Below are positions 5,559-20,506 of a stretch of 27,205 nucleotides of DNA, in pieces. A program made the translations under genes and the position numbers. The stretch covers positions 1 to 27,205 of IMG/VR virus record IMGVR_UViG_3300031379_000018; one strand, 5' to 3'. How positions within the stretch are numbered: the first letter of the stretch is position 1; the number at the start of each line of letters is the position of its first letter. Origin of the DNA: a virus. Under the pieces are notes generated by a model. It saw nothing but the letters and a program-made list of their open reading frames with translations, ran no database searches and was not told the origin of the DNA.

Positions 5559-5916
5559 ATACCCTGTGGGCAGGCATCCGAACACACTGGCGAACCTTGC
5601 AAAAGGTAGAAAGGAATTTAAGCCAGGGCAATCAGGAAACCCAAAGGGGAGACCACCGGGCATCAAATATGTCAGTGAGGCTCTGAGGGAAAGGTTGGCT
5701 AAAGGCGAACTGGATAATGTGACCCTTGCTGACCTCTTGGCTGATAGTTTAATAAAGCGGGCAAAGAAGAGCGATGTCGCCCTCAACATACTTTTAGACA
5801 GGACAGAGGGTAAGGTTACTCAGCCTATCGGGGGAGACCCGACTATGCCAATCGTAGTCGAAAGGATAGTGGCTCACATAACAGAGGATAAAAATGGCAG
5901 TAGCTCAGGAGATTAG
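5539..5916 (+). CDS. Terminase small subunit-like (DUF5681) protein
   Basis: This 125-residue protein has the DUF5681 signature FKPGQSGNPKGRPPG at about residues 27-41, a motif common in phage proteins directly upstream of the large terminase. The N-terminus is basic (MAKQKSKYPVGRHPN); residues 45-85 are helical with a LADLLADSLIKRAKK segment that could be the DNA-binding or oligomerisation part. It overlaps the large subunit gene by 23 bases. The small subunit recognises the packaging site and regulates the motor. The position strongly supports the role even though DUF5681 itself is not experimentally well defined. Confidence 0.75.
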   Translation: MAKQKSKYPVGRHPNTLANLAKGRKEFKPGQSGNPKGRPPGIKYVSEALRERLAKGELDNVTLADLLADSLIKRAKKSDVALNILLDRTEGKVTQPIGGDPTMPIVVERIVAHITEDKNGSSSGD

Positions 5917-7177
5917 ACCTTATAGGGAGCTTATAGACAATGAGATACACCTGAACTTTCACCCCGGGCAGTCTAAGACATGGCAGAGCACTAAGAGGTT
6001 TATCGCCATGCAGGCCGGCACCCAGGGCGGGAAGACATGTTTTGGGCCGGACTGGCTCTACAGGGAGATTAAAAACCGTGGGGAAGGGGACTACTTAGCG
6101 GTAACATCTACCTTCCCTCTGCTAGAGCTCAAGATGCTGCCTGAGTTCCTGGCTCTCTTTGTTGACTTGCTTCACTTAGGCACTTACTCCGACTACAAAA
6201 AGGTTTTAACCTTCCATAGCGGCAAGACGAGAGTGATTTTCGGCAGTGCTACCCATCCCGAGTCTTTGGAGTCAGCTACGGCTAAGGCGGCATGGCTTGA
6301 CGAACCTGGGCAAAAGCAGTTCAGGCGGGATACATGGGAAGCGGTGCAAAGGCGTCTTTCTATTTACCAGGGAAGGGCACTATTCACAACCTCTCTTTAC
6401 TGCTTGGGCTGGTTTAAGAACGAGGTTTACGACCTATGGGAGGCTGGCGACCCTGATTATGATGTAATCATATTCGACTCCACAATGAACCCGGCTTTTC
6501 CGCAGGCTGAGTTTGAGAGAGTCCGCTTAAGGCTTCCGACCTGGAAGTTCAATATGTTTTATCGCGGGAGATACGATAAACCCGAAGGGCTTATCTACTC
6601 CTCGTTTAATCCCCAGCACTGCTTAAAGGCAAGCTTCGAGATACCTAAAAACTGGCTAATCTATGTAGGGCATGACTTCGGAGCTGCTAACCCTGCTGCT
6701 ATCTTCTTCGCTGAAGACCCGGGGACTGGGCTCCTGTGGGCTTTTCACGAATACCGCCCTGGTGCTGGCAAGAGCGTATCTGAGCATGTGGCTGAGTTTA
6801 AGAGGATAACCGAAGGTTACACAGTGGTTAAGAGAGTGGGGGGCAGCCACCAGGAAGAGGAGATTAGGCAGGCTTATGATGCTCATGGCTGGGCGATAAG
6901 CGAACCCCCGGAGATGAACCGCAAGGTAGAGACTCAAATCGCTAAGGTATTCGCATGGCACAAGCTCAACAGGATTATGGTATTCAAAGACCTCTTGGGC
7001 TACCTGGACGAGAAGCAATCGTTTTCCCGAAAGCTGGATGAGCGATACCAACCTACCGATGAGATAGAGAACGAATCTCACTATCACCTTATGGCAGCAG
7101 AACGCTACATCATAGCAGACCTGGATGAACCTGATAGGGCAGTAAATAAGGAAGAGGCGGAGGCTTGGCAATTCTAA
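5894..7177 (+). CDS. terL: Terminase large subunit
   Basis: This 427-residue protein is the ATPase-nuclease that drives DNA into the prohead. Walker A is AGTQGGKT at residues 41-48. Walker B and the catalytic glutamate are AAWLDE at 132-137. The C-terminal RNase H-like nuclease begins with YVGHDFGAANPAA, where Asp261 is the likely first metal ligand. GGSHQEEEIRQ near 316 and NESHYHLMAAERY near 393 cover the later acidic positions. The length is normal for a Terminase_6-type protein. The start overlaps the small subunit gene and has AGAGGA upstream. Confidence in the assignment is high; the exact later nuclease residues are inferred. Confidence 0.95.
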   Translation: MAVAQEIRPYRELIDNEIHLNFHPGQSKTWQSTKRFIAMQAGTQGGKTCFGPDWLYREIKNRGEGDYLAVTSTFPLLELKMLPEFLALFVDLLHLGTYSDYKKVLTFHSGKTRVIFGSATHPESLESATAKAAWLDEPGQKQFRRDTWEAVQRRLSIYQGRALFTTSLYCLGWFKNEVYDLWEAGDPDYDVIIFDSTMNPAFPQAEFERVRLRLPTWKFNMFYRGRYDKPEGLIYSSFNPQHCLKASFEIPKNWLIYVGHDFGAANPAAIFFAEDPGTGLLWAFHEYRPGAGKSVSEHVAEFKRITEGYTVVKRVGGSHQEEEIRQAYDAHGWAISEPPEMNRKVETQIAKVFAWHKLNRIMVFKDLLGYLDEKQSFSRKLDERYQPTDEIENESHYHLMAAERYIIADLDEPDRAVNKEEAEAWQF

Positions 7178-7422: not shown

Positions 7423-7764
7423 ATGAACAAGGATTTTGCTTTATTCCAAAAAGAGTTCAAAAGGTGGCAGAAGCTATTTGGGCTTACTGGCTATAAGGTT
7501 TATTTCAAATATGAGCCAGAAGAGGGTTATTTCGCAAGCCTTTCTGTCAACCAGGGGAATATGGTAGCTACTGCAACACTAAACAGTGAACTGCCTGACA
7601 AAGATAAACCCTTCAAGGATATTAAGCGAACTGCCAAGCATGAGGCAATACACTTATTAGTATCCAGATTAGAGAAGGATGGGCGTTATCGGTTCACATC
7701 TGAGGATGAAATCTATGAAGCCACCGAGGAATTAGTATTTAGGCTAGAGGATTTAATCCCTTAA
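7423..7764 (+). CDS. HExxH metallopeptidase-like protein
   Basis: This 113-residue protein contains a zinc-protease signature KHEAIHLL with His73, Glu74 and His77. A Glu-rich helix follows (EIYEATEELVFRLE, residues 96-109), where Glu99, Glu102 or Glu103 could be the third ligand, giving a minimal gluzincin-like or SprT-like fold. The N-terminal YKVYFKYEPEEGYFASL reads as two strands, as in these families. The AAGGAG site lies only two bases from the ATG, unusually close. It lies between terminase and portal genes, so a role in head maturation is possible. Loss of activity or a purely structural role cannot be excluded. Confidence 0.6.
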   Translation: MNKDFALFQKEFKRWQKLFGLTGYKVYFKYEPEEGYFASLSVNQGNMVATATLNSELPDKDKPFKDIKRTAKHEAIHLLVSRLEKDGRYRFTSEDEIYEATEELVFRLEDLIP

Positions 7765-9537: not shown

Positions 9538-9706
9538 AGACCTCGACTTTGAATTTACTGTAGATGACTTTGACCGAATGGTTCTTGAGGCTCTTGAAGA
9601 TGATGAGGGAGTAGAAAAGAAGCCCAAGACAACCAGGCCGAACTTCCTAGAGATGCTACGAACTGGTGGCCAGCTAGGAAAACTTAATACTGGGAAAGAG
9701 GAATGA
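9530..9706 (+). CDS. Small acidic phage protein
   Basis: This 58-residue acidic protein overlaps the portal stop by eight bases and the start of the giant gene by four (ATGA arrangement). GAGGAGG lies upstream of the ATG. The N-terminal half is strongly acidic (DLDFEFTVDDFDRMVLEALEDD without any motif); the C-terminal half is basic and Gly-containing (TTRPNFLEMLRTGG). Its position between the portal and the giant virion-type protein suggests a chaperone or adaptor, which is inference only. Confidence 0.6.
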   Translation: MSKDLDFEFTVDDFDRMVLEALEDDEGVEKKPKTTRPNFLEMLRTGGQLGKLNTGKEE

Positions 9707-12700
9707 ATGGATTTACTCTAAACGAAAAGGACTTGCTAAAACAATACGGGCAGGCAAAGCAGCTAGAGATTGAGCGCTTACTGTCGCAATATGGGACTTC
9801 CCTCAAAGATGTCAGGGAGATGTATCCCCAGCTAACAACTGCTATTGAGCAGAAAAGGCTAACGACTACCTTCCCCACACAGCCTTTGTTCTTTACACCT
9901 TCTGAAGCTGCTCAAATGGGTTTAGCACTTCAGGAAGGCTGGATGCTCAAGATGAGTCCGATAGAAGGCAACGGCGGTTTTACTTCTAGCCTTATTACCC
10001 CTCAGAAGTGGGAGATTACTGAGGATGACATGTACATATCACCATCTGGCGACCAATTGGCTAGAGCTGACATGGAGGCACTTCTAGGCGAACCAACGGG
10101 AGCCTTTGAGGCTACTCCATACCCTCTGACTGTAGAGGACTTAACCGAAGAAGGTAAGAGTGCATACCAGGAATATCAAGGAGCTGGTGGCGCCTTAGAT
10201 GTCAAAGGCTGGGTGGACTTAAGAGAGAGGCAGCAGCTTGAAACCGAGCAAGTATTCGGAGCTGTTTTCCCCGAGAAGGATATTCAGGAAGTCGTAGATT
10301 ATATCAACACTGACGCAGAGGGTTTTCTGGCAGATATACGGGAAATTGGCAGGACTGGGGGAACTGAGGCACTGCTACGATATTTGATACCAGAAATTAC
10401 CGAAGCAGACTTTCAGGATATATTTGGCACGGCGGTAACTGCCCCAGGATACATACCTGAGAGCAAGCTGGAAGATGCGTGGGATGCGGTTATTGCCGGT
10501 GCTATGGGATTTAAGCAAAATATAGAAACATTCCTGTTCACAAATCCACCGCCAGACCCCGAAAAGAACCCAGAGGCTTATTCAGCTTGGGCTACTCATA
10601 CAACTGCAATAGCTCCAGAATTTTTCCCACAATATGCACAAGCACAATATGAACAGGGGATGCAAAACACGATAGCAGGATATTTACGGAGAAGGACAGA
10701 ACACGAAACCTTTTGGGCTGAGCATCCTGAACTGGCACCAAGACCTGAATATCTGGAAAACCCCTTTGATAACCCTAGTTTGCTTAAAGACCCGGGTTAT
10801 TGGGCTTATTCAATTTCAAGTAGTTTAGCCTATACCTTAGCTGTTATGGGAACGATAGTAGGAGTAAGCGCCGTAGCGACTCCTTTTGCTGGAATACCGG
10901 CAGGGTTAGCCCTGGCAGCAATGCCTGAAGCCGGCAGTATGATTGATGAATTGGTGAGTAAAGGAGTTCCCATTGAGGAAGCTACAAAATGGGGTGAACG
11001 CTATGGACTCATTGCTGGGGGGATTGAAACAGCGTCAGACTTACCATTCTTAGGATTGGTATTCAAGCCTATTAAGGCAGCAGTTCAACCAATGTGGAAT
11101 ACCATCTTCAGGGGAGTAGCAAGTCGGATTACCAAGAAGATATTGACCGGCCTTGTTATCACGCAGACTGAAGCCTTAGAGGAAGTATTTACACAGGTAA
11201 TACATAACGCTATCCTCAAGCATTATGACGAAACGCAATCTCTTATGGAGGGTGTGAGCCATGCTTACATTCAGGCGACAATAGCCTCAACACCCTTTGG
11301 TGCTATCGGTGGGTATGCCTCGTTTAATACATTCTACGACAGGCTTTCGCCCCAGATGCAGCAGCAATACAGTGGGTTGGTTGAAAGGTTTAAGGATGCT
11401 GGACTCACCGAACAGGAAGCTCAGGTGCAGGCTGCTAATGAGCTGGCTAAGACTACTGAGGGCGAAGCGGAGCTTTCTGAGGCTATCGAGGCAGCACAAG
11501 AGGAATACTTGGAAGAGCATCCTGAGGCAAAACTCCCAAGCCAAGAGCCTGTTATCCCTACTCTACCAGAGAGTATTCTCCAAGATATGAGGGTAGCGGA
11601 TGAGATTGCGAAGAAGGGTGTGCCTGTTACGCCAGAGGTTACGAAAATATCTGAACCAGAAGGCATTAAGCTTTTAAGGAATATCATAGAAGATTATCAA
11701 AATAGGAAACAAAACTATGTAGAATTTCTAATAGGAACCAACTGGCAGTACCCAGGAGATTCTAAATTAGATATTCACCAGTTGGAGAATGACCTAGAAA
11801 AAGCAGGTTATTTCAATGTAAAAGCATTTTGGGATGAGATAGCACAATCGAAAGCAGCAATCCCCAAAGCCAAAGCTGAAGCCAAAGAACCTTGGCAGAT
11901 GACAGAGGGGGAATACAACAACTATATTAACCAACTCCAGAAAGCCCAAAGTCGTGGTTTGACGGAGACATTAACAACCAAAATGGCAAAAGCCTCTGAT
12001 GAATTATCTCGCATTCAAGGTGGGCGTTCTCATAGATGGCAGGTAGAAAAAGCCCTCTCAGAAGGCAAGCCCGTTCCCGCCGAAGTCCTAGCCGATTATC
12101 CTGACTTAGCAGTTCCCGAAATCGCCACAGGCAAGCCATATACCGCTACTGTCTATCGAGGTTATAAAGAGGGCGGTGCTCCTGTAGATGAAGGCTTGTT
12201 CGGCAAGGGGACTTACTACACGACTAACAAGGAATATGCTGAGACCTACGACGGCAAAGAGGTTATGACAGTCAATCTCAAAAACCCCTTCGTTATAAAG
12301 ACTCAACAAGAGGCTGAAGCCTTCTGGAATGAGACTACCAGACCCGCAAGGCAAGAGGCAATTAACGAGGGCAAGACAGTAGAGGAAGCTGACGAACTCG
12401 CTGCCCAAGCTGCTACAGATTATCTTAAGAAACGAGGGCATGATGGGCTTGTAGCCAGAGATATTATTGAAAAGGGCGATGAGATTGTAGTTTTTGAGCC
12501 TGAGAAGGCGGTGGGAGTTCCCAAAGCCGAAGCTGGTATGCCAGAAGCTGGTATGCAACCTTCTATGCTAGAGGAAGTGCCAGCAAAGGAAGTTAAACCT
12601 GCGCCGACAGGGAAATTAGTCCAGGCTCGCATGGACGACTATCTGAGGCTCAGGGAATATAACAAGCAGGCTACCACAGACCGAATTGCCGAGATTAAAA

Positions 12701-15700
12701 AGGCACTCGAAACCAAGGGCAGGTCAGCACTTGGGCTTAAAGGAAACCTGAGATTAGAGCTTGCCAGGCTTGAGGCATTACAGGAAGTTGACGCTGTAAA
12801 GAGTATTCAAGACCTCGATTCCTTAATCAGAGAGGTTCAAGCCGAATTATCAAATCGAGAACTCCCATATCATGGCGGGGCTCGAAATCTATTTAAGGGA
12901 TACACGATAAGACAGCTTGAAGAGATGCTGAATGTCTATAACCAGGCAAGACAATCAATGCAAGCTGAAGTGCCTGCGCTTGAACCAGCACCTAAGCCAG
13001 AGCCAAGCCAGAAAGATATTAACAGAGTTAAAACAGACCCGACCCCAGCATCCGATGAGATTATCCTGCAGAAGTTTATCGAGTGTATTAAGGATGCCAA
13101 GCCCGCAAGGGAAGTTACTGAGGTATTGAAACATCAGGAGTTATCAAGGCGTTCTGCTATCTTTGCTAGTATTTTACAGGGGGGAGAAGGATACAAGGCT
13201 TTTGAGAAGGCTAAGGGGGCTCTGAAGGGATTTTTACCACAGGGCGAGTATATCTTGGACTTGCAGAAGTTCGAGATAACCGATGCAGATATTGAGCGAA
13301 TGATTGACCGCATCCGCCTTGATAATAGTTTAAGGCCTTTTGAGAAACTCAATACTTATCAGGCTTTCACGAATTTGGTTATGGGGTCAATCCCGACTGA
13401 AGGTGAGCTCCTTCTCTTGGAAAGAGAGTTTGGCGCAGACTTCATTAAAGCCATTATGAGTAAAATGGCAGCAAGGGAGAGGGCAATCAGAATTATTCAG
13501 GACATAGCCAACATTCCACGAACCCTACAGACCTTTGCAGACCTATCTGCCAGTCTCAGGCAAGGGGCAGTTTTAGCCTTCGGGCAACCTGTCCAGTTTG
13601 CCACAGCTTTTAAGGCAGAGCTGAAGGTTGTGTTCAGCGAAAAGAACTTTAAGCTAATAAATGAGATTGTGCACAACAATGTGTATGCAGATTCGGCACG
13701 TGAACATGGACTTTACGTTGCTCCTATAGAAGAAGCTGTCAGAATTGAGGCCAGGGAAGAGGCTTTCAGAGGGAGGTTGATTGAGAAAGTGCCTGTTCTC
13801 GGTGCGATAGTTCGTGCTTCAGAGAGAGCTTATATCACGATGCTCAATGTCCTCAGAATTGAGACGTATGCCTATTACGCTCACCAGTGGGAGGGAACAG
13901 GTAAGACCAGTGGCGACTATGACAAATTGGCAGCGTTTATCAATCATGCCACCGGGCGCGGTGACCTAGGTGCGTTTAGCAGGGCAGGAGCTTGGCTTTC
14001 TGCTGCATTTTATTCACCTAGATTTATCATGTCCAGGCTCCAAGTGCCTCTTGATTTGATTAACACAACACCGGCAGTGCGAAAGGTGGTTGCTCGCAAC
14101 CTCGTAGCTTTCGTGGGCACAGGCATGATGGCACTAACTCTAGCAAAACTAGGTGGTGCAGAAACAGAAGATGATCCTCGCTCTAGCGACTTTGGGAAAA
14201 TTAAGATTGGTAATACTCGGATAGACTTCTGGGCTGGCTTTCAGCCTTATGTGCGCGTAATCACTCAGATAATTAACGAGGAACGGAAATCTACCAGGAC
14301 AGGTGAAGTCTATACGATTGACCCAATAGATGTTGGCGTTTATTTCTTCAGGTCAAAGCTCGCTCCAATGCCCGGGTTATTGTGGGATTTGAAGTCAGGC
14401 GAGACATTTATAGGTGAGGAATTAAGTGCCGAGAACGCTGAAAAGATAATCTTTGAAAAGCTAACTCCCCTGTTTATTCAGGACTTAGTTGAAGCTGTGA
14501 GGGATTCCGGGATAGCAGGTGTGGGATATGGGACACTAGCGTTGCTCGGTATTGGGGTTCAAACATGGAGCGATAATTGGGAAACGGCTGAACAGAAACT
14601 CGGCCTGCCACAAAGGGGTGATAATCTGCCTTACACAGTAGAAAATGCAGTTTACGATGTGGGAGATTACTACTCAGAAATAAGCAGAATGATTGGCGGG
14701 GCGACTTACGATATGCTTTCGGACAAATGGAATATATCTGAAATGGTATTATCGGTTGCCCAAGCTAAAGACATCGTAAGAGAGATAAACTTACTCCCTA
14801 ATAAGAGGCTGACCAGCATCAATGCTGACCCAGCTGAGGGAGATACCTTTGAGCAATATCACACACAATGGCTGGCTAGGCAGAAAATCACCGATGCAGA
14901 CGAATTAGACAAGTTCGATAAAGATTATCCAAAGGCTTATCTCGGGAATATGACTCAGGCTCAATATGTCTTATTAACGCAATACCACTCATTACCCGAC
15001 TCCCAGAAAGCAGAGTTTCTTGGTAATCATCCAGAGATTTATGCTAACCCTAGAGAGGATTGGCTAAGGACTCACCCTGAAGAAAACGCCCTGCTGGTTC
15101 TATGGGACAAGGCGAAAATATACAGTCTTGAGGCAGTCAATAAGGTGGAGGCGCTGGCTAAATCCTTAGACATACCTGAAAACGCTTTGATACTCCAAGA
15201 TTTAGATGCCGTTACACAACTGAAACTAAAGAACAAGGCTAATTCTGATTTGCTCGATGCTTACAGTGGGCTCGATGACACATTTAAGGGTCCAGATGGG
15301 CTTACCGCCAGGGATAGAGCTATTCAAGAATTATACACCGATAACCCTGAGTTCAGGGATGATATAAGGCGCATTGAGGCTTTGAATGTGGGGACGGAGG
15401 CAAACCCAACATTAGAAAGTATTGTCGAAGGCTGGGTCGAGAGAGGTCAGGTCGTTGATGAGTTCGGAGCCAGCAGCGTCGAGACTAGATTATGGCTGAT
15501 AGATAACAAGGAAGTCCGCCAATGGGCACTCGACAACAAATTATTAACCGATGATGGCTCAGACTGGAACGAGAACATTCTCAGGCTTCAGGTCGGCTAT
15601 CGAGAGGACTTTGACCTGTACGATTCCTACGGAGACAGGACATCACCCAATTATATTGAGGGGGATATACCTAGAGAAACCGCGCGGAAAGAACTTTTAT

Positions 15701-16140
15701 TTAATGCTCAAGGGCAACTTACTAATTTTGGAACAGCTTATTATACAAAGAAAGCTCTTGAAAAGAATATCCCAGACAATCTTGTTACTACTTATGTTGA
15801 CTATTACGGGATAAGGAAAAAAGAGGGCGTGGATTACTCGGCGGGATGGTATGAGGATGACTGGTTCTTAATTGAAAATAAGGACTTCTATGACACGATG
15901 GTTGATATGGGGCTGTGGCAAGAAAGAGATTTTACTAAAATTCCGACAAGGGAGGTTTTCAATCTGTACCAGACTTATTATACCAAGCATGAAGGTCAAG
16001 AAAGGATAACTTTTAGGATCCAGCATCCCGAATTGGATGCATGGCTAGTCTATGCCAAGCAATATAGCTATACCAGCGATGTAGCTAGGGATATATACTC
16101 GAATCACCCAGATAAGTTTCTGGCATATTGGCCTAGATGA
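9703..16140 (+). CDS. Giant large-polyvalent-type protein with ART-like domain
   Basis: This 2145-residue protein is encoded between portal and scaffold genes. The N-terminal 360 residues are mostly helical. A hydrophobic segment lies around 366-410 (AYTLAVMGTIVGVSAVATPF). Linker motifs known from phage large polyvalent proteins follow: EPWQMT at 729 and HRWQVEKALSEGKPVP at 777. Residues about 815-938 look like an ADP-ribosyltransferase fold: Arg819 in YRGY, GLFGKGTYYTT at 831-841, a helix with KEYAETY, then VVFEPEKAV with Glu932. From about 1270 a helical region (GRGDLGAFSRAGAW near 1418) resembles the LPD38-type domain, and the C-terminus holds HPE-type helical motifs. It is probably a virion or injected internal protein; modification of a host target by the ART is inferred. 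Confidence 0.75.
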   Translation: MNGFTLNEKDLLKQYGQAKQLEIERLLSQYGTSLKDVREMYPQLTTAIEQKRLTTTFPTQPLFFTPSEAAQMGLALQEGWMLKMSPIEGNGGFTSSLITPQKWEITEDDMYISPSGDQLARADMEALLGEPTGAFEATPYPLTVEDLTEEGKSAYQEYQGAGGALDVKGWVDLRERQQLETEQVFGAVFPEKDIQEVVDYINTDAEGFLADIREIGRTGGTEALLRYLIPEITEADFQDIFGTAVTAPGYIPESKLEDAWDAVIAGAMGFKQNIETFLFTNPPPDPEKNPEAYSAWATHTTAIAPEFFPQYAQAQYEQGMQNTIAGYLRRRTEHETFWAEHPELAPRPEYLENPFDNPSLLKDPGYWAYSISSSLAYTLAVMGTIVGVSAVATPFAGIPAGLALAAMPEAGSMIDELVSKGVPIEEATKWGERYGLIAGGIETASDLPFLGLVFKPIKAAVQPMWNTIFRGVASRITKKILTGLVITQTEALEEVFTQVIHNAILKHYDETQSLMEGVSHAYIQATIASTPFGAIGGYASFNTFYDRLSPQMQQQYSGLVERFKDAGLTEQEAQVQAANELAKTTEGEAELSEAIEAAQEEYLEEHPEAKLPSQEPVIPTLPESILQDMRVADEIAKKGVPVTPEVTKISEPEGIKLLRNIIEDYQNRKQNYVEFLIGTNWQYPGDSKLDIHQLENDLEKAGYFNVKAFWDEIAQSKAAIPKAKAEAKEPWQMTEGEYNNYINQLQKAQSRGLTETLTTKMAKASDELSRIQGGRSHRWQVEKALSEGKPVPAEVLADYPDLAVPEIATGKPYTATVYRGYKEGGAPVDEGLFGKGTYYTTNKEYAETYDGKEVMTVNLKNPFVIKTQQEAEAFWNETTRPARQEAINEGKTVEEADELAAQAATDYLKKRGHDGLVARDIIEKGDEIVVFEPEKAVGVPKAEAGMPEAGMQPSMLEEVPAKEVKPAPTGKLVQARMDDYLRLREYNKQATTDRIAEIKKALETKGRSALGLKGNLRLELARLEALQEVDAVKSIQDLDSLIREVQAELSNRELPYHGGARNLFKGYTIRQLEEMLNVYNQARQSMQAEVPALEPAPKPEPSQKDINRVKTDPTPASDEIILQKFIECIKDAKPAREVTEVLKHQELSRRSAIFASILQGGEGYKAFEKAKGALKGFLPQGEYILDLQKFEITDADIERMIDRIRLDNSLRPFEKLNTYQAFTNLVMGSIPTEGELLLLEREFGADFIKAIMSKMAARERAIRIIQDIANIPRTLQTFADLSASLRQGAVLAFGQPVQFATAFKAELKVVFSEKNFKLINEIVHNNVYADSAREHGLYVAPIEEAVRIEAREEAFRGRLIEKVPVLGAIVRASERAYITMLNVLRIETYAYYAHQWEGTGKTSGDYDKLAAFINHATGRGDLGAFSRAGAWLSAAFYSPRFIMSRLQVPLDLINTTPAVRKVVARNLVAFVGTGMMALTLAKLGGAETEDDPRSSDFGKIKIGNTRIDFWAGFQPYVRVITQIINEERKSTRTGEVYTIDPIDVGVYFFRSKLAPMPGLLWDLKSGETFIGEELSAENAEKIIFEKLTPLFIQDLVEAVRDSGIAGVGYGTLALLGIGVQTWSDNWETAEQKLGLPQRGDNLPYTVENAVYDVGDYYSEISRMIGGATYDMLSDKWNISEMVLSVAQAKDIVREINLLPNKRLTSINADPAEGDTFEQYHTQWLARQKITDADELDKFDKDYPKAYLGNMTQAQYVLLTQYHSLPDSQKAEFLGNHPEIYANPREDWLRTHPEENALLVLWDKAKIYSLEAVNKVEALAKSLDIPENALILQDLDAVTQLKLKNKANSDLLDAYSGLDDTFKGPDGLTARDRAIQELYTDNPEFRDDIRRIEALNVGTEANPTLESIVEGWVERGQVVDEFGASSVETRLWLIDNKEVRQWALDNKLLTDDGSDWNENILRLQVGYREDFDLYDSYGDRTSPNYIEGDIPRETARKELLFNAQGQLTNFGTAYYTKKALEKNIPDNLVTTYVDYYGIRKKEGVDYSAGWYEDDWFLIENKDFYDTMVDMGLWQERDFTKIPTREVFNLYQTYYTKHEGQERITFRIQHPELDAWLVYAKQYSYTSDVARDIYSNHPDKFLAYWPR

Positions 16141-16174
16141 AAGGCTACACACCAGCAAAATAAGGAGGAGACCG

Positions 16175-16279
16175 ATGAAAGGAGTACCTAAAAGAAATGG
16201 CTCTGGTGGAGGGACTAGAGCAAACAGGGGTAGAGGTGGATGTAAGCCAACGAGAAGTGTAGGGAAGGGAAGAAAATAA
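16175..16279 (+). CDS. Gly/Arg-rich mini-protein, copy 1
   Basis: This 34-residue basic protein has AAGGAGGAG just upstream of the ATG. It shares a core with the mini-protein at 20393-20506: NGSGGGTRAN here versus DGSGGGVRAN there, followed by RGGCK in both. About 21 of 34 aligned residues are the same. The single Cys and many Gly, Arg and Lys suggest a disordered nucleic-acid- or protein-binding peptide. It lies between the giant gene and the scaffold gene and is followed by a hairpin terminator. Similar short RANxGRGGC peptides occur in phages, but I know no function. Confidence 0.7.
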   Translation: MKGVPKRNGSGGGTRANRGRGGCKPTRSVGKGRK

Positions 16280-16318
16280 GGGTCGTTGGGCGGCCACCGC
16301 CTTTAAGAGTGGCACTAG

Positions 16319-16351
16319 CCTCAGAAAATCTTTTACATTCTGAGGCATTTT
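16319..16351 (+). terminator. Hairpin terminator before scaffold gene
   Basis: CCTCAGAA (16319-16326) pairs with TTCTGAGG (16338-16345), followed by CATTTTCTATTT. It lies directly before the scaffold gene's AGGAGG site and would reduce read-through from the giant gene, or act as a partial terminator or mRNA processing and stability hairpin. An additional smaller GGCGG/CCGCC hairpin sits at 16289-16301. Confidence 0.65.
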
Positions 16352-16368
16352 CTATTTAGGAGGTTCAA

Positions 16369-17118
16369 ATGAAGGACGAAACCAAAGAGACCCAGGAGAA
16401 TTCCCTCCAGGATTCTGGAAAGGCTTCTGAGGGTAGCGAAGGGACTACTCCACCGGATGAAGCCAAGACTCACACACAGGAGGAGCTAGACAAGGCTCTG
16501 CAAGCTGACCGCATTAAGCGAGGTAGAGATGATAAAGCGCTATCCGAAAAGAAAGCTGCCCTCGATGCCCAAGAGGAATCTGTCAAGGCACGACTCGCCA
16601 AGATAGAGGAATGGGAAAGGCAACAGGATGCAGCGGAACTAGCGGAAGCGCAGCGAGACCCCGACAAGTTGGTAGCTTACCAGGCTAAGCAAGTTGAAAA
16701 GAACAGGGGAAAGGGCTTGGACGCTCGCGAGGCTGAGCTTAAAAAGCGAGAGCAAGAGCAAGACCGCAAAGAGGCTGAGCACGCAGAGACGGTTAAGTCT
16801 GCCCAGCAGCACCAGATGGAAATGAGCCTATGGGAGATTGCCGCGGAAGCTGGAATTAACCCACAGACGCTCAAAGATGGTGTTAAGGAACTTAACCTGA
16901 CAACTGTAGAGCAAGCCAAAGCACTCGCCAAACGACTGAAGCCAACGGGTGAACGACCACCAGAGGGCGAAGTTGAAGGCGAGAAAGTGACTCCTATATC
17001 TGTGCCGACGACTGGCGGTTCTCATGGAACACCTACCCTTGAGCAGCGAGGGAAGCAGTCAATGGAAGACTACGCTGCTCAACGGAAAAAGGAAGAACCA
17101 GACAAATTCCCATTATAG
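16369..17118 (+). CDS. Scaffold-like capsid assembly protein
   Basis: This 249-residue, highly charged protein is predicted mainly helical. Residues 1-45 are acidic and disordered. Residues 45-150 form a long coiled coil rich in Glu, Lys and Ala (KAALDAQEESVKARLAKIEE, then DAREAELKKREQEQ). A small domain with EIAAEAGINPQTLKDGV follows at 155-171, then a disordered tail ending in KKEEPDKFPL. That composition, the length and the position directly before the capsid gene are typical of phage scaffold proteins, which guide prohead assembly and leave before packaging. An AGGAGG site fixes the ATG. Confidence 0.8.
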   Translation: MKDETKETQENSLQDSGKASEGSEGTTPPDEAKTHTQEELDKALQADRIKRGRDDKALSEKKAALDAQEESVKARLAKIEEWERQQDAAELAEAQRDPDKLVAYQAKQVEKNRGKGLDAREAELKKREQEQDRKEAEHAETVKSAQQHQMEMSLWEIAAEAGINPQTLKDGVKELNLTTVEQAKALAKRLKPTGERPPEGEVEGEKVTPISVPTTGGSHGTPTLEQRGKQSMEDYAAQRKKEEPDKFPL

Positions 17119-17130
17119 GAGGGATAAAAA

Positions 17131-18243
17131 ATGACGCAAACTCTATTAACTTCAGACATCATAGCTAAAGAAGCTCTGTTGGTCCTGGAGAACGAATTAG
17201 TCATGGCTAACCTTGTCCACCGGGATTACTCTAAAGAGTTCAAAAAGGTAGGGGCAACGGTTACTATCCGCAAGCCAGCGACATTTGAGGCAAGTGCCTT
17301 TTCAACGACTGTCGCTGCCCAGGAAATAGTCGAGTCAAGTGTTCAGGTTATTCTGGATAAGTTTTACGACATTACGGCGCACATAACTTCGCAGGAAATG
17401 TCGCTGGATCTTGTGAGCTTTTCAGAACAGGTGTTGCAGCCGATGATGCGAGAACACGCTCAGAATGTGGATGAAATTATCTTCAGCGAAATCTACAAGA
17501 CTGTAGCGGGGCACACCCCGGTTGCTGGCACTCCGGCGATAAGCGACCTGGCCGGGCTCATGGCACAACTGGACATTCAGAAATGTCCTATTACCGAAAG
17601 ACGGGTAGTCCTGTGTCCTGTTACTCAGGCGAAATACGCTGCGCTTGATGCAATACTTCACGCCGACAAGAGGGGCAAGTCCCTCACCATTGACGAATAC
17701 CGCATCGGGCGTGTACTGGGCGCGGACTACTATATGTCTCAGAATGTGCCGACCTGGGCAAGCAACTCCAACGATGACACGCTGGCATTCAAGGGAGCTG
17801 CTACTGCCGGTGCTACGGCTGCGACACTCGATGCAGGTGGAACAGTAGGCGCTATCGCTGCTGGCGATGTTTTCAAGGTAGTGGGTAGTGACAGGGGCTA
17901 TCTAATCGTAACCGGTAGCACTGTCCTGGCCGATGCAACTGCTGAAATTGACATTACCTTTACCCCAGCTCTTGATGCTGCATTGCTTGATAATGCCGTT
18001 GTTACCTTTCAGAGTGCCGGCAAGGTGAACCTGGCTTTCCACAAGAATGCCTTCGCTCTTGTTAGCGCACCACTGGAACCTTATATCGGCGGAGTCAACT
18101 GCAGCACTCAGAACTACAAGGGCATATCCTGTAGGGTAGCCCTTGACGGGGACACTGTTGCTAAGGCAAACCGCATCTCGGTAGACATCCTCTTCGGGGT
18201 GAAAACTCTGGACAAGGAACTAGCGGCCAGACTATGTGACTAA
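17131..18243 (+). CDS. Major capsid protein, P22 coat family
   Basis: This 370-residue protein has the HK97-like fold pattern of the P22 coat (gp5) family. It has an N-terminal arm, a spine helix region around LVSFSEQVLQPMMREHAQNV (residues 94-113), and a core beta region. An inserted domain at about 212-298 is rich in Gly, Ala and Thr (ATAGATAATLDAGGTVGA), matching the family's I-domain. LAFHKNAFALVSAPL at 301-315 is a typical segment after the insertion. The C-terminal VDILFGVKTLDKELAARL resembles the usual end. AGGAGGG precedes the ATG. It is expected to build the icosahedral shell, with the upstream gene as scaffold. The call is strong. Confidence 0.9.
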   Translation: MTQTLLTSDIIAKEALLVLENELVMANLVHRDYSKEFKKVGATVTIRKPATFEASAFSTTVAAQEIVESSVQVILDKFYDITAHITSQEMSLDLVSFSEQVLQPMMREHAQNVDEIIFSEIYKTVAGHTPVAGTPAISDLAGLMAQLDIQKCPITERRVVLCPVTQAKYAALDAILHADKRGKSLTIDEYRIGRVLGADYYMSQNVPTWASNSNDDTLAFKGAATAGATAATLDAGGTVGAIAAGDVFKVVGSDRGYLIVTGSTVLADATAEIDITFTPALDAALLDNAVVTFQSAGKVNLAFHKNAFALVSAPLEPYIGGVNCSTQNYKGISCRVALDGDTVAKANRISVDILFGVKTLDKELAARLCD

Positions 18244-18267
18244 TAGCGGGCAAGGAGAAGCTACAAG

Positions 18268-18301
18268 GGGGGAGGTTGCTCCTGAAAGCCAGGCCTCCCC
18301 C
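18268..18301 (+). terminator. GC-rich hairpin after the capsid gene
   Basis: GGGGGAGG (18268-18275) pairs with CCTCCCCC (18294-18301) across an 18-base loop region. Only ATTTATT follows, so the T-run is weak. It may act as a partial terminator or as an mRNA-stabilising hairpin that keeps capsid expression high and lowers expression of the glycosyltransferase downstream. Confidence 0.5.
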
Positions 18302-18318
18302 ATTTATTAAGGAGGTTT

Positions 18319-19515
18319 ATGAAGGTTTTACTTACTGGTAATTCACCCTTCAACCAGACAGGCTACGGAATACAACCAGCGCAACTAGCCCTAGAATTAC
18401 GGGGACTTGGGCATACAGTTGCCATCTTTGCCTACTATGGGCTGGCAGGTGGCATTATTTACTGGAACGACATACCTATCTACCCTAACCCCGGTGAAGA
18501 TTATGGCGCAAAATGGGCAGAGAGAATTTATAACCACTTCAAGGCTGATTGCTTAATCACGCTCATAGATGTATGGGTTCAGGGCGAATTATCGGCAAAC
18601 CTTAAATGGTTTCCCTGGACACCTATTGACCATGAACCTATGCCACCGGGGGTTTATAGTGTGCTCAAAAACCACCCGGGGATTTATAAGCCAATCGCCA
18701 TGTCCAAGTTCGGGGAAAAGGAAATGAAGCGCCTCAAAATTGATTGCTTCTACGTTCCCCACATGATTGACTGTAACGCTTATTATCCCAATTTGGAGAT
18801 ACGCCAGATACAGAGGGAAAATGTAGGCTGGACTGATAAGTTCGTCATAGGCAAAGTAGGCACGAATGTCCGTGAAAGAAAGGACTGGACATCTGCCTTT
18901 CTCGCATTAAGTAAGTTCAAGAAATATCACGATGATGTGATGATGTATTGCCACACAGACGCTTCGGAATCAAGAGGGCGCAACCTCCAGGCGTTGCGGG
19001 AAAATCTGATGATTCAAGATGTAACCCGCTTTCCTTCTATGGTGGAGATGAAGCTAACTGGCATCCCTGCACCCACGATGAACAATATGTATAACTCACT
19101 CGATGTTTTCCTGAGCAATTCAAAGGGAGAGGGATTCGGGATACCGACCATAGAGGCACAAGCGGCGGGGGTCCCCGTCATTGTTTCCAACAATACGGCA
19201 CAGCCTGAGCTGTGTGGCGGGGGCTGGATTCTCAAGAGAATGATACCCGAATTTGACGAGCAATCATCCTGGGAAGGAAGAGCCGACCCTGACGAGATTG
19301 TCGAGTATCTTGAGGAGGCTTACCAGGAGAAGAAGTCGGGCAAGCTGGCTGAAAGAAAGATAGCAGCCAGGGAAAAGGCGCTGGAATACGATATACCCAC
19401 GGTGATGGAGAAATACTGGAAGCCCGTCATTGCGGAAATCGAGAAGATGGTACAGATGCCCAGGAAAAAACATAAAAGAAAAGGTGAGCATGCAGGAAGT
19501 CGTAGACAGGTTTAA
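18319..19515 (+). CDS. GT-B glycosyltransferase (GT4-like)
   Basis: This 398-residue protein starts with the Rossmann strand MKVLLTGNSPFNQTGYG followed by LELRGLGHTVAIF, as in GT-B enzymes. The donor-binding E-x7-E motif is Glu271 and Glu279 in SKGEGFGIPTIEAQAAGVPV, the hallmark of family GT4. The C-terminal tail is very basic (KKHKRKGEHAGSRRQ). The ATG follows an AAGGAGG site. It would transfer a sugar from a nucleotide donor; the acceptor could be a virion protein or a host surface glycan. The location right after the capsid gene fits virion modification, but that is inference. Confidence 0.85.
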   Translation: MKVLLTGNSPFNQTGYGIQPAQLALELRGLGHTVAIFAYYGLAGGIIYWNDIPIYPNPGEDYGAKWAERIYNHFKADCLITLIDVWVQGELSANLKWFPWTPIDHEPMPPGVYSVLKNHPGIYKPIAMSKFGEKEMKRLKIDCFYVPHMIDCNAYYPNLEIRQIQRENVGWTDKFVIGKVGTNVRERKDWTSAFLALSKFKKYHDDVMMYCHTDASESRGRNLQALRENLMIQDVTRFPSMVEMKLTGIPAPTMNNMYNSLDVFLSNSKGEGFGIPTIEAQAAGVPVIVSNNTAQPELCGGGWILKRMIPEFDEQSSWEGRADPDEIVEYLEEAYQEKKSGKLAERKIAAREKALEYDIPTVMEKYWKPVIAEIEKMVQMPRKKHKRKGEHAGSRRQV

Positions 19516-20209
19516 GGAAACGGGCAATACCGTAGAACTCTATACTGGCTACGCCAAAGCCAGTGGAAAAAGCTGGGCAAATACTAAAAGACCTTCTTAC
19601 CAGACCGACTTGTGGTATTGCCATAACCGCAACCGCATTTGCCTTGAACTATTGGGTGATTTGTGCGACGGGAAAGATGTCCTGTCCATTGGTTCAAGGG
19701 AGTGGGTAGAAGATGAATTGCTCCAATCAATCAATGGGAGAATTGTCAGGACCGACCTCATCACACAGCCTGAAAAAAAGATTATAGGGGCTGATGTTGC
19801 GTACCTGCCGTTTAAGGATCAAACCTTTGATGTTGTTATTTGCAGGGAAGTGATTGAGCATGTGCCGGATGCGGATGCCACCTTTCAAGAGATTAAGAGA
19901 GTATTAAGATCCGAAGGCTATCTGCTTATAACGACACCGAACGGCCTGGCAGGATACATTGACGGAGTAATCCATGTCCGGGGCTATACACCCCCATCAT
20001 TCCTGAATGAATTGGAGATCCAGGGGTTTGACGTAATCAAGAAGAAAGGGGACATTCCCTATCTTCTTAATGGGATAGTGCTTTTCAAGTCTGTTGAGGT
20101 TCAAAAGAGACTACTTCAAGACTTCATGGAGATAGACCGAGTAACTAGAGACTACCAACATCTCTATTATCTAAGTACGCATTTATATGTTTTGTGTAAA
20201 AGGAGGTAA
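19490..20209 (+). CDS. Class I SAM-dependent methyltransferase
   Basis: This 239-residue methyltransferase of the type 11 kind is read from the ATG at 19490, preceded by AAGGTG. An earlier in-frame ATG at 19430 lies inside the glycosyltransferase gene and is less likely. Motif I is DVLSIGSRE (residues 63-71), a degenerate version of the glycine-rich loop. The acidic position is RTDL (87-90). The strand VVICREVIEHV (115-125) and the TTPNG loop (148-152) also fit. The overlap with the glycosyltransferase gene suggests both act on the same target, for example methylating a transferred sugar. The target is unknown. Confidence 0.8.
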   Translation: MQEVVDRFKETGNTVELYTGYAKASGKSWANTKRPSYQTDLWYCHNRNRICLELLGDLCDGKDVLSIGSREWVEDELLQSINGRIVRTDLITQPEKKIIGADVAYLPFKDQTFDVVICREVIEHVPDADATFQEIKRVLRSEGYLLITTPNGLAGYIDGVIHVRGYTPPSFLNELEIQGFDVIKKKGDIPYLLNGIVLFKSVEVQKRLLQDFMEIDRVTRDYQHLYYLSTHLYVLCKRR

Positions 20210-20211
20210 AT

Positions 20212-20385
20212 ATGCCTGCTGAAAGTCCGGCAATGAAGACCACGGCGTGTATGGCACTAGGCTATAAGCGTCATGGTGAAAGTGCCATAAAAAGCGTGAA
20301 AAATAAAAAGGCTGTAATTGACATGGCGAACTCAATGACCGAGGAAGAGCTAGAGGATTTCTGCCTCCAGCCGGTGAAAGAGTAG
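20212..20385 (+). CDS. DUF3008-like mini-protein
   Basis: This 57-residue protein is preceded by an AAAAGGAGG site. The pattern is MPAESPAMKTTACMALGYK, a spacer of Lys and Ser, then MANSMTEEELEDF. It matches the layout of the short PAKS...QQ...A..M family seen next to capsid genes in many phages (DUF3008-like), but the first motif is diverged: it lacks the usual QQ pair. Its function is unknown. It stands between the methyltransferase gene and the second Gly/Arg mini-protein. Confidence 0.55.
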   Translation: MPAESPAMKTTACMALGYKRHGESAIKSVKNKKAVIDMANSMTEEELEDFCLQPVKE

Positions 20386-20392
20386 GTGAAGC

Positions 20393-20506
20393 ATGACTAA
20401 AGGAACACCCAGAAAAGATGGGAGCGGTGGAGGGGTCAGAGCAAACAAGAGAAGAGGGGGATGCAAGATACCCCGCAGCACAGGGCAAGGCCGCAATAGA
20501 AGGTAG
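20393..20506 (+). CDS. Gly/Arg-rich mini-protein, copy 2
   Basis: This 37-residue basic protein has the core DGSGGGVRAN-KR-RGGCK, followed by PRSTGQGR. It is a clear paralogue of the mini-protein at 16175-16279: the position of the Cys, the RAN triplet and the GSGGG run are the same, and the C-terminal Arg/Lys-rich tails differ. A GGTGA serves as weak ribosome-binding site. It starts seven bases after the previous stop and is followed by an inverted repeat at 20508-20550. It lies just before the connector gene, whereas copy 1 lies just before the scaffold gene. Confidence 0.65.
   Translation: MTKGTPRKDGSGGGVRANKRRGGCKIPRSTGQGRNRR

Follow-up and report, generated by a model that had tools for sequence, protein, structure and literature searches.

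A conserved Gly/Arg-rich micro-protein family of tailed phages, probably related to the cellular DUF5320 motif

DUF5320 proteins (PF17253) begin with the motif MPxxDGTGPxGxGPxTGRGxGxC, which is followed by a GRG-rich linker and a C-terminal coiled coil, and their genes lie in a neighbourhood of DUF134, Nitro_FeMo-Co and NUBPL-like genes. DUF134 (UPF0251, PF02001) is a cellular HTH protein, the tail of which reads EKGVPKRDGSGKGxRANRGRGGC in Micrarchaeota. A further set of small proteins, DUF3008 and other micro-proteins starting with MP, is encoded in phage late modules. The two peptides described here are encoded in an IMG/VR virus record of 27,205 bases (the window), with which numbered loci (L-numbers) were compared. 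Like DUF5320, they have the PxxDG[S/T]G start, the GRG and the terminal Cys of the core, but RAN takes the place of GPxT, and both the linker and the coiled coil are missing, these being present only in the archaeal protein of L298. Their core is nearly identical to that of the DUF134 tails, but they lack the HTH domain, and they have head and packaging genes as neighbours, whereas the cellular neighbourhood of DUF5320 is present only around the stand-alone peptide of the archaeal locus L124. The MP-starting micro-proteins occupy the same slots as the peptides (DUF3008 in the window, L117 and L045; other small families in L170, L068 and L009) but are unrelated to them in sequence. The finding is larger than that of the initial annotation: the peptides belong to a family of viral micro-proteins that is not catalogued and is probably related to a motif widespread in cells.

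The features of the window that concern the two micro-genes are as follows.

5894-7177, + strand: terminase large subunit (phrog_2, E 7.5e-17)
16162-16170, + strand: strong Shine-Dalgarno sequence of copy 1, AAGGAGGAG
16175-16279, + strand: micro-protein copy 1, ORF of 34 aa, MKGVPKRNGSGGGTRANRGRGGCKPTRSVGKGRK; positional orthologues in L014, L122, L070, L009 and L028
16310-16350 (approximate bounds), + strand: terminator-like hairpin 3' of copy 1, GCCTCAGAA..TTCTGAGGC, then T-rich
16369-17118, + strand: putative scaffold, acidic, 249 aa, role by position only
17131-18243, + strand: major capsid protein (MCP), P22 coat type (PF11651, E 7.6e-42; phrog_283, E 6e-67)
18319-19515, + strand: glycosyltransferase, GT4 type (PF00534, E 7e-11; phrog_2170, E 4e-28)
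19430-20209, + strand: SAM-dependent methyltransferase (PF08241, E 7e-15), its 5' part overlapping the glycosyltransferase gene
20212-20385, + strand: DUF3008 micro-protein, 57 aa (PF11450, E 4e-5, at the cut-off)
20393-20506, + strand: micro-protein copy 2, ORF of 37 aa, MTKGTPRKDGSGGGVRANKRRGGCKIPRSTGQGRNRR; positional orthologues in L009, L056, L117, L167 and L170
20563-21153, + strand: head-tail adaptor-like protein, 196 aa, SU10-type relation (the connector of the initial annotation)

Copy 1 ends about 90 nt 5' of the 249-aa acidic ORF, which stands at the scaffold position, has no convincing family match in profile libraries and has a homologue at the same place in L009, L028 and L117. 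Copy 2 ends about 57 nt 5' of the 196-aa ORF, and the DUF3008 gene stops 7 nt 5' of copy 2. The adaptor-like assignment derives from an iterative HMM match of the 196-aa ORF with L014:5085-5885, which itself matches SU10_adaptor (PF24175) with an E-value of 8.5e-4, below the cut-off. The hairpin that follows copy 1 (folding z of -3.0 for the 90-nt gap) was considered as a family-wide conserved terminator and rejected, as it accompanies copy 1 only. Upstream of copy 1 lies a gene for a 2145-aa protein (9703-16140), the C-terminal part of which is conserved in L009, L014, L028 and L117. The glycosyltransferase and methyltransferase are separate overlapping ORFs in the window (18319-20209), and a single 534-aa ORF in L117 (3418-5022) matches both.

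The two peptides are paralogues, and the micro-protein family to which both belong is under strong purifying selection. They are identical at 21 of 32 residues (66%, E 1e-12), and a back-translated pattern common to both copies has exactly two matches in the window and none in 100 shuffles. The initial annotation had noted the paralogy, the conserved Cys and Gly/Arg content and the fact that the genes are short enough to be skipped by gene callers; these points hold: the RGGC core is conserved, and both are real genes missing from profile libraries. When the pattern was searched in IMG/VR, at least 120 stretches were found, nearly all of them stand-alone ORFs of about 33-45 aa, and extrapolation from a rarer codon pattern (9/121 in the sample, 21 in all) gives an estimate of about 280 viral contigs with the family. 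Its consensus, KG(V/T)PKRDGSGxGxRANRGRGGCxxTRxxGxGR, spans about 35 residues, and the window peptides end 11-13 residues past the Cys. Although the search pattern itself imposed 11 core residues on the set of 161 non-redundant members, positions outside it are also kept, namely P (155/161), K (147/161), G (140/161) and two later G (139/161 and 124/161). In a scan without the RGGC requirement, only 9 of 134 matches deviate from the full core, and 8 of these 9 keep a Cys there or adjacent. First and second codon positions are fixed across the 161 members while third positions are free, indicating that selection acts on the protein.

No family in Pfam, PHROG or NCBIfam covers the peptide, and neither PDB sequences nor a literature search on the motif strings gave a match; two papers that mention DUF5320 have titles on other subjects. 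The family is absent from 50,697 genomes of deposited phages searched by tblastn, a negative for which the same query served as a sensitivity control, finding 114 of roughly 125 family members in a database of similar size; among 84,980 prokaryote genomes only 15 carry it. Flank similarity is undetectable in 14,889 of 15,051 pairs of carriers, and the peptides themselves have a median identity of 67% at the amino acid level and only 60% at the nucleotide level. The peptide is thus old and not freshly transferred; recent horizontal transfer was rejected, since nucleotide identity is about 60% between unrelated carriers, with very few exceptions. The family is an uncatalogued, very strongly conserved one, carried by hundreds of otherwise unrelated tailed-phage genomes. 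Its shortness, its conservation in so many unrelated phages and its absence from Pfam, PHROGs, NCBIfam and the deposited phages searched point to a function late in infection that escaped notice, such short genes being passed over by gene callers and libraries. Two further readings of the motif were discarded: a P-loop resemblance (GSGKGT), as the Lys is often replaced by Arg or Gly, and a RiPP or modification substrate, as no recurrent modifying enzyme adjoins the peptide gene.

Outside viruses, DUF134 proteins of Micrarchaeota (L284, L287, L289, L295-L297) carry the same core as their C-terminal tail. In another Micrarchaeota protein (L298, 75 aa) it stands at the start, and 69 residues align with PF17253 at 25.6 bits (cut-off 27). 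Additionally, a Diapherotrites contig (L124) encodes a stand-alone peptide of 37 aa between Nitro_FeMo-Co/DUF134 and two Fer4/NUBPL-type ATPases. Profile comparison with hhalign, the E-values of which are single-comparison values on shallow alignments, links the phage peptides (type A) to the Micrarchaeota tails (E 8e-18) and those tails to DUF5320 (E 4e-12), with a weak direct comparison of type A and DUF5320 (E 0.016). The window peptides have no match to PF17253 at E<=1 and do not reach the Pfam gathering cut-off of 27 bits, and among 83 members scanned only two match at E<=1 (best 0.56). From these alignments, the type A core (PxxDG[S/T]G..G...GRG.C) probably represents a variant form of the motif at the N-terminus of DUF5320 and in some DUF134 tails of archaea, though convergence of Gly-rich motifs can also give rise to such likeness.

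The canonical DUF5320 motif (DGTGPxGxGPxTGRGxGxC) also occurs in viruses, in 77 contigs (L321-L397), mostly as peptides of 23-60 aa, five of which end exactly at the Cys. In L321, L338, L370 and L379 it stands close to the N-terminus of a longer viral protein. These type B peptides align well with DUF5320 (E 3e-14) and weakly with type A (E 5e-5), and each type has been found fused to an MPF(K/Q)S..Q micro-protein, type A in L093 and type B in L386. No genome was found with both types, each being too rare for this absence to carry weight. We infer that a single peptide module exists in two versions, types A and B, and the phage forms would show how small its minimal unit can be, the shortest having 23 residues with Cys at the end. 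The DUF5320 link also gives a handle on function through the cellular neighbourhood, which suggests Fe-S or Mo-cofactor proteins as the partner; no such proteins were seen among the phage neighbours examined.

The best explanation for these observations, to which we assign a probability of about 0.42, is a conserved late free peptide of the DUF5320-variant type that docks on a host-side partner and not on the capsid, with paired copies bracketing a swapped cassette. The peptide would be expressed late, be intrinsically unfolded and stand free in phages; the AlphaFold prediction has no confident fold (pLDDT 65, pTM 0.21). Its Gly-rich, Cys-bearing core would dock onto a partner that is conserved in phages and hosts alike, with a host protein, or the metal-cluster or nucleic-acid machinery common to the DUF5320/DUF134/NifX/NUBPL system, as the candidate, and not a particular capsid protein. 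Capsids and portals differ between carriers and the core does not, which makes a capsid protein a less likely partner than a host-side one or a nucleic acid. The two copies would be retained because each is part of a module that is transcribed on its own or can be exchanged. Stated more broadly, and still tentatively, the Gly-rich, Cys-ended motif of about 20 residues could be a functional module common to cells and phages, used by the latter as a late free peptide with a universal host-side partner, its paired copies bordering capsid cassettes in some lineages.

Binding of nucleic acid, which the initial annotation had also raised, is the strongest competitor to host-side docking, though we consider it rather unlikely. 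On this account, the chain, rich in Arg, Lys and Gly, would bind DNA or RNA of the phage at a late stage of infection, in genome condensation, in packaging or as a virion-internal peptide. The composition of type A would suit such a role, with a mean net charge of +11.4, 59% G+R+K, 5.5% hydrophobic residues and RG/RGG-like repeats, as would its late-strand location, next to terminase and connector genes. However, the near-invariance of G.G.G.RAN..R..C is not expected of a peptide that binds by charge alone, and the related type B includes neutral or acidic members (10 of 77 with a net charge of 0 or below), which argues against charge as the common principle. For type A itself, the strong positive charge favours the idea.

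The initial annotation suggested a peptide used in head assembly, which as a structural peptide could be a capsid cement, decoration or scaffold-helper protein, and asked as a check whether homologues always flank head genes. HMM searches detected head and packaging anchors in a part of the loci only; of these 150 anchors, 148 share the strand of the peptide. Among 26 larger records, 22 have the peptide on the strand of most anchors, compared with 65% of all genes. The median distance of the peptide to an anchor is 5.5 kb, versus 9.4 kb for a random gene (P 0.017). Compared with a random same-strand gene, however, the peptide is not significantly nearer to the anchors, either in the larger records (P 0.09) or in the loci (P 0.09), which makes it a late-strand gene and not a fixed head gene. 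Type B peptides are likewise on the strand of head and packaging genes (47/49) and are nearer to these than other same-strand genes are (P 0.008). The immediate neighbours of type A include terminase, connector, MuF-like, portal and adaptor genes, as well as genes for NinG, ribonucleotide reductase, dUTPase and methyltransferases. A family rule of strict adjacency to head genes was rejected on the distance tests, so that homologues do not strictly flank such genes in every case.

What stands of the head-assembly proposal is the location of the peptide within the head block of the window lineage and several relatives, together with an MCP at 10 kb or less in 10 of the 12 record placements with a detectable MCP. 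Against it, the same peptide, unchanged, is found beside different capsid families (phrog_283 and phrog_212), as well as beside portal phrog_156 and connector phrog_332; unrelated portals and terminases and some DNA-metabolism genes adjoin it, and its cellular relatives lie in a non-viral operon. A role specific to head assembly is accordingly improbable, although a virion protein would show the same strand and module bias as a peptide docking on a host-side partner.

Each of the two copies in the window has relatives at its own place in other phages. Copy 1 is closest to the scaffold-preceding copy in L014 and L122 (84% nucleotide identity) and groups with that of L070, while copy 2 is closest to the adaptor-preceding copy in L170, L009 and L117 (74-77%); the two are only 68% identical to each other. 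L028 (record G015) has the scaffold copy only, L117, L167 and L170 have the adaptor copy only, and L009 and L056 have both. Between L009 and the window, homology extends over the adaptor (56%), the scaffold (43%) and the upstream gene (50-61%), whereas the capsids belong to different families (phrog_212 in L009, phrog_283 in the window) and the glycosyl- and methyltransferase genes are unrelated by blastp. These orthologues at fixed places, in combination with the non-homologous block in L009, show that the copies predate these phages and border the exchanged block. In the window lineage, ancient, positionally orthologous copies thus bracket a swapped cassette of capsid and sugar/methyl-transfer genes whose outer flanks are kept, which supports a reading of copies retained on either side of an exchangeable head cassette and makes this lineage a natural experiment, with a capsid block swapped between two conserved micro-genes.

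The swapped block, and a gene for a 113-aa protein that lies beside copy 1 in L009 and L028 but elsewhere in the window, could be taken to mean that the repeat is a recombination border or mobile micro-gene with no late function of its own, marking exchange points of the head cassette, but this is the least probable reading, as selection acts on protein and not on DNA, the copies have no stretch of identity longer than 10 nt, which makes them poor substrates for recombination at present, and most carriers have a single copy (43 of the 45 records searched, with two copies in the other two). The 113-aa gene lies just 3' of the terminase gene in the window (7423-7764) but in L009 (1159-1500) and L028 (4904-5245) it stands between copy 1 and the scaffold, with 72-75% nucleotide identity, and is thus a small gene that has been relocated.

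Small genes are frequent beside the peptide gene. PxKSxxQ micro-proteins were rejected as a general partner by proximity (2/175). Recurrent micro-proteins starting with MP (MPLAVDNLTE.., MPYDIEKRGDK.. and DUF3008-like) occupy the slot beside the peptide, as if they were interchangeable partners, in L009, L017, L063, L068, L096, L109, L150 and L170 and at 20212-20385 in the window. In L134 and L137, which are binned as Woese- and Pacearchaeota and may be virus contigs of DPANN archaea, rows of tiny basic proteins, often containing Cys, adjoin the peptide.
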